A stretch of DNA of 64,000 nucleotides from an uncultured Clostridia bacterium (GTDB lineage Bacteria; Bacillota; Clostridia; Oscillospirales; Ruminococcaceae). Position numbers and translations under genes: made by a program. Of the stretch, positions 16,958 to 59,944 are shown in pieces; within the stretch, counting starts at the first letter, position 1, and every line of letters begins with the position of its first letter. Under the pieces are notes generated by a model, which was not told the DNA's origin, did not search any database, and was given only the letters and a program-made list of their open reading frames with translations. Location of the stretch: positions 57,569 to 121,568 of the forward strand of contig CANQRG010000009.1 in assembly GCA_947626165.1 (NCBI GenBank), written 5' to 3'.

Positions 16958-18943
16958 CTATGACAACTTATTTTGTTCGTTAAATTCGTAATACTTATCA
17001 ATGGCTTCCTGTAATTTTTTTGTTGCCTCATCAAGACTAGTTTCAAGCTGACCGCCTGCAGATGTCTGATGTCCGCCGCCGCCAATAGACTCCATAACCA
17101 CCTGCACATTCATTTCTCCTATAGAACGTGCGGAAATAGATGTCTTGCCGTTGTCAGCGTAAACAACGAACGACGCCTTTACGCCCTCAATATACAACAA
17201 TTCGTCAGCCGCCTGAGGGGCGGCTATTCTTATAGTATCGCTGTTCTCGTCGTCAGTTACCGTTATTGCACAGCCCTTATACATAACCGAATTTTTAATA
17301 AGGTCAGTTTTTCTTTTATATAAATCAAACGAGGTCGAGAACATAGTTTTTACAGTTACCGTATCGGCGCCTGCGCGTTTAAGATACGCTGCCGCCTCGA
17401 ATGTTCTAACGCCTGTTCGCATAACAAAGTTTTTAGTGTCCAGCATAATTCCTGCCATAAGACACTCTGCAATACTCGGAGAAAGCTTGATATTATCTCC
17501 GAAATACTGCACAAGCTCTGTCACCATCTCAGAAGCTGAAGAAGCATAAGGCTCATGGTAGAACACAATATAATTTTCAATAGACTTTACCATTCTTCTG
17601 TGGTGGTCGATTACGATAACCTTGTCAAACATCTTGTATAACTCAACGCTGTCGAGGATTTCAGGATTATGAGTATCAACTATTATGAGCGTTGTTTTAT
17701 CAGTTTTCATTGAGATAGCAAGCTCAGGCGGAATGAAAAAGGTATCATTTTCATTTTTGTTTATATGTTCTATTAAGACCCCCGAAAGGTTCTCCTCAGG
17801 GTCAACAACAACATACGACTTCTTACCTATCTGTCGCATAAGAGTACATACTCCTATAGCCGAGCCGACGCTGTCGAGGTCGGCAAGCCTGTGTCCCATA
17901 ATTAAAACCAAATCCGACTGCTTTACGCTATCGTTAATTGCGTTAGCGATTATTCTTGTTTTTACCTTAGTTCTTTTTTCAATGCCTTTAGAAACTCCGC
18001 CGAAGAACTCAAACCCGTTATCCGTTTTAACTGCAGCCTGATCTCCGCCTCTTCCCAGACACATATCAAGCGCCTGTCTTGCATAGACCTCGCTCTCGTG
18101 GAGAGTTTTAGCTCCGTGACCAACGCCTATAGAAAGAGTGATCGTCTGTCTTTCTCCGATTTCTATTTTTCTCGCCTTATCAAGAATATCAAACCTGTTC
18201 TCTATAATTTTTGAAAGATGCCTTTCCTCAAGAACGACAAAGAATTTGTTATTTGAGATTTTCTTGGTAACTCCCGTTGTGCTGTCGATAAAATTTTCGA
18301 CAAGTTTTTCAATTTCGACTAAAATATGAGCCTTTTCGCTGTCTCTTGCATTTTCAAGCAAGTCCTCATAGTCGTCCACCGAAATTATCATAACCGAAGG
18401 ACGCGACTGCCTGTATTCGTAATCGAGGTTTACAAAGTCGGTTTCGTTTTTGAAATATATCATCGTAAGCCCTGAATCATTAGTCTCAGGTTTAACTGCC
18501 AAAGCACGGTAATACTTACCCTTATATGTAACCAGAGTACCCTTCTTAGTAAACAGCTTATTGAAATTAATATCCATAAGGTCGTCCAAACGAACGCCGA
18601 AAGCGTCCTTTTCTCTGAACACCTCTTTATCGAAGCGTGAGTTTAGCCAAACTATGACATTATTTTCGTCAATAATAAACGCAGGAGCGGGAAAGTTATA
18701 AAGAGTCTCACGCTGAGTGATAGAAATATCCCTTGACATTCGGGCTACATATCTCATTCTACCAAAATAAAACAGCACAAGCTCTATCGTCATAACAGCA
18801 AACCCTGCCAAAGCCAGAGCAAAAAGCGCTATACCAAGAACTTTATAATCAGTAGCCTTACGTATAAACAACGAAGAAAAAATTCCTGCTGCGCCTAGTA
18901 TTATATATGAAACTATAAAAAACGGAGAAAGTCTGTTTTTCAT
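16958..18943 (-). CDS. gdpP: Cyclic-di-AMP phosphodiesterase GdpP
   Basis: Membrane phosphodiesterase that hydrolyses c-di-AMP to pApA, controlling osmotic and cell wall homeostasis. From ATG 18943 (661 residues): two N-terminal TM helices, a PAS-like domain (TLYNFPAPAFIIDENN), a degenerate GGDEF domain (SVDDYEDLLENARDSE), then DHH-DHHA1 with GHRLADLDSVGSAIGV, VDTHNPE, IDHHRR and GGGHQTSAGGQ. The ORF-track GTG at 18973 sits one base from AGGAGG and is unlikely. The ATG comes after a hairpin that follows the same AGGAGG, an arrangement shared with rnj, hisD and engB. Confidence 0.95.
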   Translation of the reverse strand: MKNRLSPFFIVSYIILGAAGIFSSLFIRKATDYKVLGIALFALALAGFAVMTIELVLFYFGRMRYVARMSRDISITQRETLYNFPAPAFIIDENNVIVWLNSRFDKEVFREKDAFGVRLDDLMDINFNKLFTKKGTLVTYKGKYYRALAVKPETNDSGLTMIYFKNETDFVNLDYEYRQSRPSVMIISVDDYEDLLENARDSEKAHILVEIEKLVENFIDSTTGVTKKISNNKFFVVLEERHLSKIIENRFDILDKARKIEIGERQTITLSIGVGHGAKTLHESEVYARQALDMCLGRGGDQAAVKTDNGFEFFGGVSKGIEKRTKVKTRIIANAINDSVKQSDLVLIMGHRLADLDSVGSAIGVCTLMRQIGKKSYVVVDPEENLSGVLIEHINKNENDTFFIPPELAISMKTDKTTLIIVDTHNPEILDSVELYKMFDKVIVIDHHRRMVKSIENYIVFYHEPYASSASEMVTELVQYFGDNIKLSPSIAECLMAGIMLDTKNFVMRTGVRTFEAAAYLKRAGADTVTVKTMFSTSFDLYKRKTDLIKNSVMYKGCAITVTDDENSDTIRIAAPQAADELLYIEGVKASFVVYADNGKTSISARSIGEMNVQVVMESIGGGGHQTSAGGQLETSLDEATKKLQEAIDKYYEFNEQNKLS

Positions 18944-18981
18944 AATTGCGGCTATGCCCCCAAACGAGAGCACTCCTCCTT
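18944..18981 (-). promoter_or_regulatory. SD-hairpin-start element, gdpP
   Basis: Read on the minus strand: AAGGAGGAG, then TGCTCTC-GTTT-GGGGGCA (7-bp stem allowing G-U), then 11 bases and ATG. The linear SD-start distance is far too long for normal initiation unless the stem shortens it. Confidence 0.5.
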
Positions 18982-19039
18982 ACATAAATTTTATAATCAA
19001 AGAGTATTTGCCTGATATTATTTTATAGTATTTTATCCT

Positions 19040-19402: not shown

Positions 19403-21463
19403 TCACGCCTCCATAATAATTGGCAAAATCATCGGATTGCGCTTTGTTTTCTGGTAAATAAAGTTTGAGAGAACGTCTTTCATTCTTATTTTGATAGCAT
19501 TCCACTCGGTTATGTCGTTTTCAAAACACTTTCTCAGCGTAGAAGACAACAGCTTTCTTGCGTCCTCCATAAGCTCCTCGCTCTCACGAACATAAACAAA
19601 GCCTCTCGATATTACATCAGGACCTGCAATAATCTCTCCGCTCGGCGAATTGACCGTTGCAATGGCAATAAGAAGTCCGTCCTGAGAAAGGTGTTTTCTG
19701 TCTCTCAAAACAATAGAGCCGACATCTCCGACGCCTAATCCGTCTACTAGTACCCTTCCTGCCTGGACTGAGCCTTTGACCCTCATATCAACGCCGTCAG
19801 TTTCAATAACATCGCCAATGCTGGAAATGATTATATTATTCTCGGCAATACCAAGCTTTCTAGCTGTCTCGGCGTGCTTTGCCAAATGTTTATACTCACC
19901 GTGAACGGGAATAAAAAACTTAGGCTTTGTAAGCGAAAGTATGAGCTTTTGTTCCTCCTGGCAGGCGTGACCCGAAACGTGAACGTCATACATTTTCTCA
20001 TATACAACTTCAGCGCCCGACTTCATAAGCTCATTTACAACATTTGTAACGAGCTTTTCATTACCCGGTATAGGCGTTGCGGAAATTATGATAAAGTCCT
20101 TTGGAGTTATGTTTACCTGCCTATGCTCGTTTCTCGACATTCTAGTAAGAGCAGACATAGGCTCGCCCTGACTTCCGGTAGTAATTATGACAAGCTGTTC
20201 GGGATTGTAATTCTTTATCTCGTCAATGTCTATAAGTATACCCTTAGGGCATTTTAAGTAACCAAGCTCGACGCTTTTTCCTATTACGTTTACCATACTT
20301 CTTCCCGAGACGGCAACCTTTCTTTTCTGCCGTTCGGCAATATTAATTATCTGCTGAACTCTGTGAATGTTAGAAGCAAACGTCGCAATAATTATTCTTC
20401 TTGTATCAGCCGTTGCAAACAGCTTTTCAAAACTTTCTCCAACAAGCCTCTCGCTCATTGTATAACCAGGTCTTTCCGAGTTTGTCGAATCTGACATAAG
20501 CGCCAAAACGCCCTTATTACCTAATTCAGCAAAACGTGCCAAATCAATAACCCCATCGTCAATAGGCGTAAAATCCACCTTGAAATCACCTGTGTGGCAG
20601 ATTATACCCGCAGGAGTGTGAAAAGCCAATCCCACAGCGTCAGGAATTGAATGGTTCACCCTGATAAACTCTACTGCCATACATCCGAGCCTTACCGTCT
20701 GCCCGGGTGTCACGTTGACAAGCTTAACGCCTTTTATTCCATGTTCTATCAGCTTTCCCTCTATAAGACCTATGGTCAGCCTTGTCGCATAAACAGGAGC
20801 CTTTACCTTTCTAAGCATATAGGGCAGTCCGCCTATGTGATCCTCATGACCGTGAGTTATAACAATTCCCCTTATTTTTTCAGCGTTTTTCTCCAGATAG
20901 TTATAGTCAGGTATAACAAGGTCAATACCCGGCATCTCGCTGTCCGGGAAAGCTATTCCCGAATCAAGGATTATTATATCATTTGAACACTCGATTACGG
21001 TCAGATTCTTTCCTATCTCATTAAGCCCTCCCAAGGGGATGATCTTAACAGGCGTTTTGCGCGCAGCGTCACGTTTTGGAGCCGTTCTCTGGTTTCTCGG
21101 CTTTGGAACATATGTTTTTGATGACCTTTTCACCGATCCTGCGCTTACGCTTTTTGCACTAGCTTCAGTTCTTGTATTTCTCTGTGCATTTAAAGCATTA
21201 CCTTTCTGCAAATTCGTTTTCCTGACTGACTGTGCATCACTTAAATTTCTCCCAGCACTATTTGACTTTTTACTGTTTACAGCCTGCTTTTCCGAGTTCT
21301 TTGCCAAAGACAAATTAATTTCAGACGTGTCGATAGTAATAAGATTCGTCAAGCCGTCGTCTGTCTTTCCGTTCACTGAAGACGGCTTTCCCCTTTGCTG
21401 TGATGAGCCCCTCTGCACTCTGTTATTGTAAGGGCTGTCAGGTCTGTTATTCTGTTTTTTCAT
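19403..21463 (-). CDS. rnj: Ribonuclease J
   Basis: Metallo-beta-lactamase/beta-CASP ribonuclease with endo- and 5'-3' exonuclease activity in mRNA and rRNA processing. From ATG 21463 (686 residues) there is a basic, Ser/Asn/Arg-rich, probably disordered extension of about 135 residues, then the core KIIPLGGLNEIGKNL, the catalytic THGHEDHIGGLPY, ICHTGDFKVDFTP, MSDSTNSERPGYTMSE, and PVHGEYKHL. The C-terminal domain is complete. The core alone (about 550) is the usual length, so the N-terminal extension is notable. A long structured leader and an SD-hairpin-start element lie upstream. Confidence 0.96.
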   Translation of the reverse strand: MKKQNNRPDSPYNNRVQRGSSQQRGKPSSVNGKTDDGLTNLITIDTSEINLSLAKNSEKQAVNSKKSNSAGRNLSDAQSVRKTNLQKGNALNAQRNTRTEASAKSVSAGSVKRSSKTYVPKPRNQRTAPKRDAARKTPVKIIPLGGLNEIGKNLTVIECSNDIIILDSGIAFPDSEMPGIDLVIPDYNYLEKNAEKIRGIVITHGHEDHIGGLPYMLRKVKAPVYATRLTIGLIEGKLIEHGIKGVKLVNVTPGQTVRLGCMAVEFIRVNHSIPDAVGLAFHTPAGIICHTGDFKVDFTPIDDGVIDLARFAELGNKGVLALMSDSTNSERPGYTMSERLVGESFEKLFATADTRRIIIATFASNIHRVQQIINIAERQKRKVAVSGRSMVNVIGKSVELGYLKCPKGILIDIDEIKNYNPEQLVIITTGSQGEPMSALTRMSRNEHRQVNITPKDFIIISATPIPGNEKLVTNVVNELMKSGAEVVYEKMYDVHVSGHACQEEQKLILSLTKPKFFIPVHGEYKHLAKHAETARKLGIAENNIIISSIGDVIETDGVDMRVKGSVQAGRVLVDGLGVGDVGSIVLRDRKHLSQDGLLIAIATVNSPSGEIIAGPDVISRGFVYVRESEELMEDARKLLSSTLRKCFENDITEWNAIKIRMKDVLSNFIYQKTKRNPMILPIIMEA

Positions 21464-21499
21464 CAGTGTCACGCTCTTTTTTAGAGCAAACCTCCTTTT
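21464..21499 (-). promoter_or_regulatory. SD-hairpin-start element, rnj
   Basis: Minus strand: AAAAGGAGG, TTT, then GCTCT-AAAAA-AGAGC, then GTGACACTG and ATG. The GTG immediately after the hairpin is an alternative start. It has the same design as gdpP, hisD and engB. Confidence 0.5.
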
Positions 21500-21833
21500 A
21501 AAGTATTAAAATTTTAAATCCGTAGCTTTTGTACCTGTTGCACAAGGTGTTTTCATACACTAAAAATCTGGGTCTTATTTTGAAAAAAGGCAAAACAAAA
21601 CCTTAAGGCTTAACCTTTTTAAGCCTACATTTCCGAATAATAAAACAATCTGAGAAATGAGATGGTTTTAGTATTTAGACTTCTCAGATAAAAACAGAAC
21701 CTCAGCGTTTAATACGCCCTGTCATTCTGTTTAACCCTAACGGGCATTTAACTTTAAGCTTCCGAACACAAATTATATTTTAGATTATACTCCATAAAAT
21801 TATTAATGTCAAGACGGCAAACTAATCCGGCTT
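21500..21833 (-). promoter_or_regulatory. Long structured 5' leader of rnj
   Basis: 334 bases without an ORF. Read toward rnj there are paired segments GCCCGTTAGGG...CAGGGC, TCTGAGAAGTC...CATTTCTCAGA and GGCTTAAAAAGGTTAAGCC. Multiple stems in this position suggest a regulated leader, perhaps for autoregulation by RNase J. No known riboswitch was recognised. Confidence 0.4.
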
Positions 21834-24671: not shown

Positions 24672-24805
24672 TTGATCCGAGATATAGGTGTACAGGTCCT
24701 GTACAATGAAGCGCTGTGAACCATGTCAGGCGGGGAACCGAGCAGCATTAAGCAGAAAGTTTCATGTGATACAGTTTCGCCTGCACACCTATATGTCGGA
24801 TTGAA
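24672..24805 (+). ncRNA. ffs: Signal recognition particle RNA (small bacterial type)
   Basis: The ends GATCCGAGATATAGGTGT and ACACCTATATGTCGGAT pair almost perfectly into a long helix. The apical domain IV has GTCAGGCGGGGAACCGAGCAGC, the Ffh-binding core with GGAA-type tetraloop. At about 130 nt it lacks the Alu domain of Bacillus scRNA. It lies directly upstream of dnaX, its normal Firmicute location. It guides nascent membrane and secreted proteins to the translocon with Ffh/FtsY. The exact ends are estimated. Confidence 0.88.
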
Positions 24806-32621: not shown

Positions 32622-33338
32622 CTAACATATCTTTTCTAAATTATCCTTTATTGTTTTTAGTATTCTCTTTTCAAGCCTAGATATGTATGACTGAGATATT
32701 CCAACTATATCCGCGACTTCTTTTTGTGTCATTTCTCTCTGTCCCAAAAGACCGAAGCGCATCTTCATAATCTGTTTTTCCCTATCTCCCAGCTTTTCAA
32801 TCTCAATTAAAACTAGCTCTTTCTCGACTTCGCTCTCAATTCCCCTTATTACAACGTCCTCATCTGTGCCTAGAATATCAGAAAGTAAAAGCTCGTTTCC
32901 GTCCCAGTCGACATTAAGCGGCTCGTCAATAGAAATATCGTTTCTGTATTGGTTTGACTTTCTTAAGAACATAAGTATTTCATTTTCAATACACCGTGAT
33001 GCATATGTCGCAAGCTTTATATTTTTATCGACCTGAAATGTGTTTACCGCTTTAATTAAGCCTATAGTTCCTATTGAAATCAAATCCTCTATCCCTATGC
33101 CGGTTGACTCAAACTTTTTTGCAATATAAACTACAAGTCTCAGATTATGGACGATAAGCGTTTCCCTGCCTTGCTTATCGTTGTTCTTTATTTGTTCAAA
33201 TGCCTTTTGTTCCTCTTCTGCCGAAAGCGGCGGAGGTAGTGACTCTGCGCCGTTTATGTAATCTATATACTTTTTCTTTCTGTTCAAAAGAATAGTTATT
33301 TTGTTTAGTATTTTATTAAATAATAAATTTAATTTCAT
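32622..33338 (-). CDS. sigE: Sporulation sigma factor SigE (pro-sigma-E)
   Basis: Mother-cell sigma factor made as an inactive precursor. 238 residues: a hydrophobic/basic pro-sequence MKLNLLFNKILNKITILLNR, then ESLPPPLSAEEEQKAFEQI, NLRLVVYIAKKFESTGIGIEDLISIGTIGLIKAV, LATYASRCIENEILMFLRK, DWDGNELLLSDILGTDED, and region 4 VADIVGISQSYISRLEKR. The upstream spoIIGA product should remove the pro-sequence. The AGAGGAGA site lies 25 bases before ATG, with a GCTTTTTAAAAGC stem between. Confidence 0.97.
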   Translation of the reverse strand: MKLNLLFNKILNKITILLNRKKKYIDYINGAESLPPPLSAEEEQKAFEQIKNNDKQGRETLIVHNLRLVVYIAKKFESTGIGIEDLISIGTIGLIKAVNTFQVDKNIKLATYASRCIENEILMFLRKSNQYRNDISIDEPLNVDWDGNELLLSDILGTDEDVVIRGIESEVEKELVLIEIEKLGDREKQIMKMRFGLLGQREMTQKEVADIVGISQSYISRLEKRILKTIKDNLEKIC

Positions 33339-33398
33339 TTTGTTTTGCTTTTTAAAAGCTTATCTCCTCTCTAATTTTATTTAAACCTAACATTAAAT

Positions 33399-52863: not shown

Positions 52864-54153
52864 TTATTCAAATCTTACCTTAATCGCATTTGCGTGAGCG
52901 GTAAGTCCCTCTTTCTCAGCAATCAAAACAATATCGTCCTTTGCTTCTCTTAGTGCGTCCTTTGTGTAATATATAAAACTTGAACGCTTTTCAAAGCTGT
53001 TTACAGAAAGCGGTGAGAAAAATCTTGCCGTACCGCTTGTAGGCAGAACATGGTTAGGTCCTGCATAGTAATCGCCCAGCGGTTCTGGCGCATATGAGCC
53101 TAAAAATATTGAGCCTGCGTTATCTAATCTGCCTACATACTCTAATGGATTTTCAAAAAGTACCTCTAAGTGTTCAGGTGCAAGGTCATTAGCAAGTTGT
53201 ACAGCCTTATCCTTTGAATCGCATACAATTATTGCTCCGAAGCCTGTCAGTGATTCATCAATTATCTCTTTTCTTGAAAGCTCCTTTATCTGGCGCTCCA
53301 GTTCGGCTTTAACATCACCTGCAAGCCTTTCGCTTGTTGTAACTAAAATAGCCGAAGCAATTCTATCGTGCTCTGCCTGACTCATCAAATCAGCCGCAAC
53401 AAACTTAGGGTTTGCGCTCTCATCAGCGATTACCAAAATCTCGCTTGGACCTGCTATCATATCAATGTCAACTGTACCGTATAAAATCTTCTTTGCAGTT
53501 GCAACAAAAATATTTCCGGGACCTACTATCTTATCTACTTTAGGAATTGTCTCTGTACCATACGCAAGCGCCGCTATTGCTTGAGCGCCTCCTGTCAGAA
53601 ATACTCTGTCAACACCGCATATTGCCGCCGCAACTAAAATGTCCTTATTAGGTGTTCCGTCCTTTAGCGGAGGAGTAACCATAATTATTTCCTTAACACC
53701 TGCGATTTTTGCAGGGATCGCATTCATAAGTACAGACGACGGATAAGCGGCTGTTCCACCTGGAACATACAAACCGACACGCTCCAGACCTCTTACTCTC
53801 TGCCCAAGAATAACTCCGTTAGCTTTATTATCTACAAAGCTCTGCGACTTCTGTCTGTTGTGAAAGTCTGCAATGTTTTCCTGTGCGTTTAAAAGTGCCT
53901 CTACAAAAGCAGGATCAGCCTCAGTCAGCGCATCGTTTATAACATCTCTCGGAACTTCATAGTATTCCGGTGCTTTACCGTCAAACTTTATTGTGTAATC
54001 ATTTACAGCCTTGTCTCCGCCTGCTTTTACAGTATCAATAATCTCACTTACTATCGCAGTTACCTTTTTATCCGTTTCGCCGTTTCGGTCAGCTACCTGT
54101 TTTAAAAACTCAACCTCGTCTTTACCGTTTGCGTAAATCGTCTTTATACTCAT
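52864..54153 (-). CDS. hisD: Histidinol dehydrogenase HisD
   Basis: Zinc NAD enzyme for the last two oxidations to histidine. 429 residues: LYVPGGTAAYPSSVLMNAIPA, VFLTGGAQAIAALAYGTETI, KIVGPGNIFVATAK, IAGPSEILVIAD, MSQAEHD (zinc), and NHVLPTSGTARFFSPL. The SD GGAGGAA is 23 bases from ATG, with a 16-nt hairpin between them. Confidence 0.96.
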   Translation of the reverse strand: MSIKTIYANGKDEVEFLKQVADRNGETDKKVTAIVSEIIDTVKAGGDKAVNDYTIKFDGKAPEYYEVPRDVINDALTEADPAFVEALLNAQENIADFHNRQKSQSFVDNKANGVILGQRVRGLERVGLYVPGGTAAYPSSVLMNAIPAKIAGVKEIIMVTPPLKDGTPNKDILVAAAICGVDRVFLTGGAQAIAALAYGTETIPKVDKIVGPGNIFVATAKKILYGTVDIDMIAGPSEILVIADESANPKFVAADLMSQAEHDRIASAILVTTSERLAGDVKAELERQIKELSRKEIIDESLTGFGAIIVCDSKDKAVQLANDLAPEHLEVLFENPLEYVGRLDNAGSIFLGSYAPEPLGDYYAGPNHVLPTSGTARFFSPLSVNSFEKRSSFIYYTKDALREAKDDIVLIAEKEGLTAHANAIKVRFE

Positions 54154-54182
54154 ATTTCTGCCCCTTGCGGAGCATTCCTCCT
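54154..54182 (-). promoter_or_regulatory. SD-hairpin-start element, hisD
   Basis: Minus strand: AGGAGGAA, then TGCTCC-GCAA-GGGGCA (6-bp stem, GNRA-type loop), then GAAAT and ATG. Nearly the same sequence precedes engB. Confidence 0.6.
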
Positions 54183-54200
54183 CTCGAAATTTAACCTAAC

Positions 54201-56409: not shown

Positions 56410-56997
56410 TCAATTAGCACTTACATCTTCAATTATCTCTTTTATTGTGTCTATGCCCTCGCCTGTCTGTGCAGAGCAAGGTATAACTGTTATATCATCA
56501 AAATATGGTATCTCGCTTTTGAAAGCCTCCAGTCTTTGCTTTTTCGCCGTTGGCTTGAGCTTATCGGCCTTCGTAAGCACAACAACAAACGGAAGCTCGT
56601 TTTCAACCATAAAATCTATCATCATAAGGTCGTCTTTTGAGGGCGCATGACGCATATCAATTAGTTGGAAAATTAAATCAATCCTTCTCGATTTGTCATT
56701 GAGATACCCCTCTATAAGACTAGCCCATCTTTTCTTTTCACCCTTAGAAACCTTAGCATAGCCGTATCCGGGTAAATCGACAATATAAATATTCTCAAAA
56801 CTGAAAAAGTTAATAGTAACCGTCTTTCCCGGCATAGAGCTTACCTTTGCTAACTGCTTTCGGTTGAATATTTTATTGATAAGCGAAGACTTACCGACAT
56901 TAGAACGCCCCGAAAAGGCTATCTCTATGCGTTCCGCTTTGGGTATCTGGTCAAGCCGACCGTATGATGTTTTAAATTCTACGTTGTTAAAATTCAA
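56410..56997 (-). CDS. engB: Ribosome biogenesis GTPase YsxC/EngB
   Basis: 195-residue GTPase in 50S assembly. G1 FSGRSNVGKSSLINKIF near 28-44, G3 VDLPGYGYAKVS, G4 VVLTKADKL, G5 CSAQTGEGID. Start TTG 56997; the SD AAAGGAGGAA is separated from it by the stem TGCCC-CAAG-GGGCA. Downstream of lon, as in Bacillus. Confidence 0.95.
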   Translation of the reverse strand: MNFNNVEFKTSYGRLDQIPKAERIEIAFSGRSNVGKSSLINKIFNRKQLAKVSSMPGKTVTINFFSFENIYIVDLPGYGYAKVSKGEKKRWASLIEGYLNDKSRRIDLIFQLIDMRHAPSKDDLMMIDFMVENELPFVVVLTKADKLKPTAKKQRLEAFKSEIPYFDDITVIPCSAQTGEGIDTIKEIIEDVSAN

Positions 56998-57030
56998 GTC
57001 TGTTTTCTGCCCCTTGGGGCATTCCTCCTT
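56998..57030 (-). promoter_or_regulatory. SD-hairpin-start element, engB
   Basis: Minus strand: AAGGAGGAA, TGCCCCAAGGGGCA, GAAAACAGAC, TTG. The hairpin flanks GGAGGAATGC and GGGGCAGAAA are identical to hisD. Confidence 0.6.
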
Positions 57031-57063
57031 TTATGTTATTAACCGTCATATGTATTTTTAATA

Positions 57064-59868: not shown

Positions 59869-59944
59869 TGGTCGGAGTAACAAGACTTGAACTTGCGACC
59901 TCTTGACCCCCAGTCAAGCGCGCTACCACCTGCGCCATACCCCG
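59869..59944 (-). tRNA. tRNA-Pro (GGG)
   Basis: Minus strand cloverleaf: acceptor CGGGGTA/TACTCCG (one G-T pair), D arm GCGCAGGTGGTAGCGC, anticodon arm CTTGA-CTGGGGG-TCAAG giving anticodon GGG, T arm GCAAG-TTCAAGT-CTTGT, discriminator A and encoded CCA. A terminator follows at 59811-59839. It reads CCC/CCU codons. Confidence 0.93.

Follow-up and report, generated by a model that had tools for sequence, protein, structure and literature searches.

A strong Shine-Dalgarno (SD) sequence followed by a small hairpin, P4, recurs directly ahead of the start codons of dozens of unrelated genes in one lineage of uncultured gut bacteria. The arrangement keeps to the sense strand and to a characteristic geometry, its stem is maintained by compensatory changes, and in related genera it forms the 3′ end of a larger structured leader. 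It is probable, in our view, that these sites are ribosome binding sites of the accommodated (split) kind, in which P4 shortens the path between the SD and the start codon.

The starting point was a stretch of DNA of 64,000 nt (the window), in which the initial annotation had described the sequence AGGAGG-AA-TGCTCC-GCAA-GGGGCA-GAAAT-ATG at hisD and the same layout before four other genes. The hisD element is present as described on the minus strand, with 23 nt from GGAGG to ATG, and all four other sites were found in the sequence (Table 1). According to Pfam the latter precede an EngB-type 50S-binding GTPase, a GdpP-like phosphodiesterase, ribonuclease J and a sigma-70-type factor. Across the five sites the distance from SD to start is 23–31 nt. 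The spacer of hisD has a predicted ΔG of −9.4, compared to a mean of −2.1 for mononucleotide shuffles (RNAfold, p = 0.002), and the same comparison gave p values of 0.002 for engB, 0.004 for the sigma-factor gene, 0.026 for rnj and 0.066 for gdpP. Two features of the predicted ensembles count against an accommodated site: the SD of hisD is unpaired only ~50–80% and the starts of gdpP and engB are paired.

Table 1. Elements in the window (positions in nt). R1 is a covariance model trained on examples of the motif, so that its matches were found with a motif-trained model.
Feature	Positions	Strand	Composition	Support
hisD Shine-Dalgarno	54177..54182	−	AGGAGG	read from sequence; R1 match 54157-54195, E = 2.5e-11
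hisD P4 hairpin	54159..54174	−	TGCTCC-GCAA-GGGGCA; arms 54174-54169 and 54164-54159	RNAfold hairpin
hisD 3′ linker	54154..54158	−	GAAAT, to ATG (54153-54151)	read from sequence
hisD, histidinol dehydrogenase	52864..54153	−		Pfam PF00815, E = 1.1e-176
engB element	56998..57029	−	AGGAGG 57029-57024, AA, P4 TGCCC-CAAG-GGGCA 57021-57008, 10-nt linker, TTG at 56997	R1 match 57006-57042, E = 1.1e-8
gdpP element	18941..18976	−	GGAGG 18976-18972, AG, P4 TGCTCTC-GTTT-GGGGGCA 18969-18952, 11 nt, ATG at 18940	R1 match 18953-18993, E = 1.3e-6
rnj element	21464..21495	−	GGAGG 21495-21491, TTT, P4 GCTCT-A5-AGAGC 21487-21473, 9 nt, ATG at 21463	R1 match 21470-21509, E = 6.8e-8
sigma-factor gene element, AT-rich	33339..33368	−	AGGAG 33368-33364, ATAA, P4 GCTTT-TAA-AAAGC 33359-33347, 8 nt, ATG at 33338	weak R1 match, E = 0.52

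The proposal that the motif recurs at unrelated loci was borne out far above chance, both by the covariance-model counts given below and by a simple pattern search. The statistics draw on such searches across whole genomes, together with sampled stretches. In the whole genome from which the window derives (1.84 Mb), the pattern GGAGGN{1,4}GCYCYN{2,10}RGRGC has 23 matches and its reversed form has none. All 23 lie upstream of a long open reading frame whose start is ~20–33 nt past the GGAGG. Distances from GGAGG to ATG in a 464-kb sample of this genome are bimodal, with values of 5–11 and 23–33 nt, and this distribution has no clear counterpart in the hairpin-poor sister species. Apart from terminator-like hairpins, no copies lacking an SD were found in the non-coding DNA of ~400 kb of sampled stretches outside the window. 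The N-termini of YebC, CTP synthase, RuvC, Dxr, GalU and PlsX are fixed by family conservation. The element precedes proteins with such conserved N-termini, so start mis-annotation was rejected, and alternative starts at normal SD spacing, named at the outset as a finding that would speak against the motif, did not emerge. A shared pathway among the target genes was looked for, and none is evident.

The geometry was measured on R1 matches sampled from five other species, 59 of 60 of which are upstream of an open reading frame. The SD lies 28.05 ± 1.9 nt from the start; the hairpin occupies 17.5 nt of this distance and 10.6 ± 2.4 nt are unpaired. Four-nucleotide loops predominate in P4 (48 of 59). 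An unpaired path of ~10–11 nt agrees with the earlier suggestion that folding would bring the SD to a workable distance from the start. The standard deviation of the unpaired length (2.41 nt) is not below that of the total distance (1.87 nt), and the total distance correlates with hairpin length at only 0.20, so these numbers alone are no proof that hairpin length is compensated.

Comparison of orthologues supports the idea that the stem is a real feature, as it is conserved through compensatory change at yebC, at hisD and in the full-length copies discussed below. The YebC start, MSGHSKW, is fixed by family conservation. Upstream of it the stem CGCTCC/GGAGCG is replaced by CGTTCC/GGGACG in genome G151, a compensatory change, and in all five hairpin-poor sister species the gene has an ordinary ribosome binding site, GGAG at the usual distance from the start. 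At hisD, P4 is kept in eight of nine hairpin-rich species, with the closing pair alternating in a compensatory manner between T-A and C-G (TGC..GCA, CGC..GCG). The hisD gene of G151 has no element at all, which indicates that it is dispensable at this locus. Orthologues of engB carry the stems ATGCTCT/AGAGCAT and ATGCCC/GGGCAT, and the sigma-factor gene of G153 (L300) carries ATGCTCT-TAAA-AGAGCGT. Among 88 short copies the inner P4 pair shows 14 U·G and no C·A combinations, as would be expected of a pair that acts in RNA; the loop-closing pair shows 15 U·G and 5 C·A.

The element is restricted to a narrow group of genomes, most of those compared being MAGs. Within the genus, strict matches number 17–24 per genome in ten species and 0–2 in five. 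The corresponding counts with the motif-trained model R1 are 35–60 and 3–8. HisD of the hairpin-rich species is 92–99% identical to the protein encoded in the window, and that of the hairpin-poor species 77–81%, so that the former make up one group by HisD identity. A stricter pattern gave at most two matches in any of 394 genomes from elsewhere in the order, and only a few further genomes stand out in the family as a whole (299 genomes). Most of the named records with the element ahead of a start are MAGs of uncultured Clostridia from the rabbit gut; they also include one MAG of Oscillospiraceae and one of Ruminococcus. An exact-match scan of wider genome contigs gave many GC-rich chance matches with no start codon in place, and viral contigs gave a single match (L128), also GC-rich and not upstream of a start. 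The expectation that the motif would be found across clostridial genomes was not supported for Clostridia in general: beyond the genus, only a few genera of one family stand out. A gene for a ribbon-helix-helix/HicB-like protein of 58–60 residues (MFEIKK..) carries the SD-hairpin-start arrangement even in hairpin-poor species (L061, L071, L150).

Beyond what a single window could show, SD-P4 is the 3′ module of a larger repeat. In Oscillospiraceae HAN076 (G538) and in genomes G540 and G671 it ends a structured leader of ~150 nt, which also occurs in a few copies within the genus of the window. The order of parts is a hairpin P0, a three-way junction P1–P3, AAAGGAGG, P4, ~10 nt and the start. 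In the junction, P1 (CGAGUUUUGUGC paired with GCNCAAAACnUCG) encloses P2 (UUUCGGAC/GUCCGAAA) and P3 (UUUUGC/GCAAAA). A second model, R2, found 61 copies in G540, 43 in G538, 30 in G671 and 12 in G093; hairpin-rich genomes of the window's genus have 2–10 copies each and the hairpin-poor ones none. In 42 of 45 distinct full-length copies that possess an SD, an open reading frame starts 20–41 nt downstream. Three unrelated sequences, ATGCTCC, ATGCTTGC and CATTTTCCC, serve as the P4 stem at this one position, and all of them bridge SD and start. Among 66 distinct full-length copies, double changes were found in 21 of 25 leader pairs including all seven P4 pairs, and 99.1% of P4 cells are paired. 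Over the whole structure there are 225 double-change cells, compared to 55 in shuffles (0/500), in an alignment (A4) that was fitted to the structure; sliding the partners destroys the covariation signal.

Tandem arrays of three to four units, each 122–123 nt long, occur in G540 (L411, L427; contigs C9, C21), and the last copy adjoins a gene. In L427 this last unit is without P4 and lies ahead of a PanD-like start. Stand-alone units of ~300 nt with a TTGACA/TATAAT-like promoter and P0–P3, but without SD-P4, were seen at L386 and L402 (G000) and at L387, L388, L390 and L403, each near position 1500. The L387 unit encodes MTMISYSELFLFANFVIGVVTLCFNIFNHKK, with a weak, sub-cut-off match to Hol_Tox (E = 0.033), which suggests a putative type I toxin-antitoxin locus sharing the P0–P3 leader. 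In G671 (L428–L438) and G538 (L441, L442, L446) an in-frame AUG is often located inside the 3′ arm of P4, four codons ahead of the presumed start (GGGAAAAUG-GUC-AUA-NNN-AUG); initiation at copies of the G671 type could be more complicated for this reason. Some short copies at least are probably reduced full-length leaders, because the A-rich 14 nt that precede the SD in many of them match the 3′ strand of P1. The gene encoding MKDIEKTN has the full leader in G154 and only the P1 3′ strand with SD-P4 in G158 and G151.

The view that the motif lies outside the named RNA families agrees with Rfam searches. With Rfam 15, only an SRP RNA and a tRNA reach the gathering threshold in the window, and full-length copies searched to E = 1 matched no family at its cut-off. 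The two hits are a bacterial small SRP RNA at 24690–24789 (+), just upstream of a DnaX-like open reading frame, and a tRNA gene at 59872–59944 (−). TD-2 is an RNA described from Treponema. In searches with its model (RF03162, clan CL00124) the best score was 38.1 bits against a gathering score of 48.7, and none of ten genomes passes. These sub-cut-off matches run antisense to full-length copies (L086 1269–1387, L442 370–494, L356 206–325), hence opposite to the coding sense of the element. TD-2 may be a distant relation of the element, because its reverse complement has the same part order: a P0-like hairpin, P1-like strands CGAGUUUUGC/GCAAAACUCG, a GGA-containing stretch and a P4-like 3′ hairpin. 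The TD-2 model, however, places P2 and P3 within an insertion. BOX- and STAR-type repeats of Firmicutes are modular, hairpin-rich, multi-copy and intergenic, and are sometimes found in tandem. The present element shares the modularity, the hairpins, the copy number and the occasional tandem arrangement, but contains an SD and ends at start codons in sense; we know of no BOX or STAR element that does so. PMC3532100 deals with STAR elements.

A different cause of the same pattern has to be considered, in which the P0–P4 leader proliferates in the manner of BOX or STAR elements and carries a ribosome binding site only incidentally. Copies beside start codons would survive by supplying a working SD-P4 and later shrink to it, so that the hairpin is element biology first and translation second. 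Such an origin is compatible with an accommodated ribosome binding site, and we regard it as plausible, if somewhat short of probable. It would explain why sister species hold very different numbers of copies, why near-identical copies occur within one genome while G538 holds two P4 sequence families, and why G540 has tandem arrays among its 61 dispersed copies; the shortened leader of the MKDIEKTN gene also fits. A freely moving repeat should be found in both orientations and away from starts, but nearly all copies have the sense orientation and directly adjoin a start codon, the exceptions being P0–P3 units without SD-P4. Free hairpins other than terminator-like ones were not seen in the sampled non-coding DNA, neither a target-site duplication nor a transposase was found, and rsmD-like and DUF3842-like genes carry the element in both of two genera. 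The leaders of yebC and hisD differ between species, but no clean empty site was found. With some reserve we also entertain the possibility that the element is a dispersed structured cassette (P0–P3, SD, P4) of an undescribed class, which would spread through the genomes of a single family of Clostridia in the gut as it captures the ribosome binding sites of resident genes, thereby making hairpin-accommodated initiation standard, and possibly co-regulated, for dozens of chromosomal genes.

Regulation through P4 or P1–P3, such as the gating of translation suggested at the outset, is possible. A full translational regulon, in which a protein, small RNA or ligand particular to the lineage acts at P4 and/or the P1–P3 junction and gates many genes at once by stabilizing or melting the hairpin, appears unlikely to us. 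Within a lineage the stem sequence is conserved beyond what pairing needs, leader and linker sequence (ACAYCGAAAGGAGG, GTCATAA) recurs across genera, and the hairpin-rich species cluster by HisD identity, all of which such a factor would account for. Yet the target genes have no evident pathway in common, the stem sequence is swapped wholesale between lineages and neither a candidate factor nor a regulating condition was found. The 3′ arm of P4 (GGAG/GGGG) might itself be the real SD, with the upstream SD competing for CUCC in a switch. At hisD this arm places AAGGGG 7 nt ahead of the ATG, and GGAG occurs within many other 3′ arms. This switch is very improbable and was rejected, since arms without SD character hold the same position (GCAAGCAT in G540, GGGAAAATG in G671, AAAGC at the sigma-factor gene); moreover, the upstream SD is kept in nearly all copies. 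Least credible of all is a DNA palindrome that serves as a transcription-factor operator in the 5′ untranslated region. Many full-length copies have a P4 whose inverted repeat is perfect, as an operator might be, but the strict strand and the placement between SD and start disfavour it, as does the acceptance of G·U and absence of A·C at the inner position (14 versus 0).

The accommodated ribosome binding site that we prefer has precedents in phage T4 (Nivinskas 1999; Malys and Nivinskas 2009; both as cited in PMC3014915). There, structure reduces the spacing between SD and AUG from 22 to 5 nt in gene 38 and from 27 to 11 nt in gene 25, and destabilizing it lowers initiation (PMC3014915). We read P4 as an accommodated hairpin because its arrangement is that of genes 25 and 38: a strong SD, a hairpin and a start, with a spacing that structure would shorten, confined to a clade of close relatives. 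The extended spacing with an intervening hairpin (~23–33 nt) and the phylogenetic covariation of that hairpin, both marks of a gene 25-type site, are found here as well. Unlike these two phage genes, the present sites number dozens per genome on the chromosome, share a core of stem sequence and are part of a dispersed repeat. In the split ribosome binding site of Escherichia coli thrS the ribosome accommodates a hairpin that stays folded (PMC3936740). The likeness lies in this accommodation; thrS differs in being a single gene with large domains. It is an autoregulated gene.

In the mechanism we propose, a site would consist of a strong SD, 0–3 nt, a P4 hairpin of 5–9 bp, ~8–12 nt and the start codon. 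Folding of P4 in the mRNA would remove 16–20 nt from the path between SD and start, so that a separation of 23–33 nt would act as ~10–11 nt and the 30S subunit could engage SD and start codon at the same time. From the anatomy of the sites and the precedents, we infer that folding places the SD at a workable distance; P4 would be folded during initiation and needed for translation. Many short copies, possibly including that of hisD, may be reduced full-length leaders or copies of the leader 3′ end, and would be retained because they now supply the ribosome binding site of the gene.

The known examples of hairpin-bridged ribosome binding sites, a couple of phage genes, are regarded as curiosities. 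A literature search, which had few subscription papers within reach, found no genome-wide case. Here a single bacterial lineage has them at dozens of unrelated genes, and because nature has supplied both compensatory mutants and exchanged stems at these genes, it becomes directly testable whether a folded hairpin between SD and start codon is tolerated by the 30S subunit. Start-site prediction based on distance would miss such sites. With the larger repeat, the provision of translation signals is also tied to a dispersed element.
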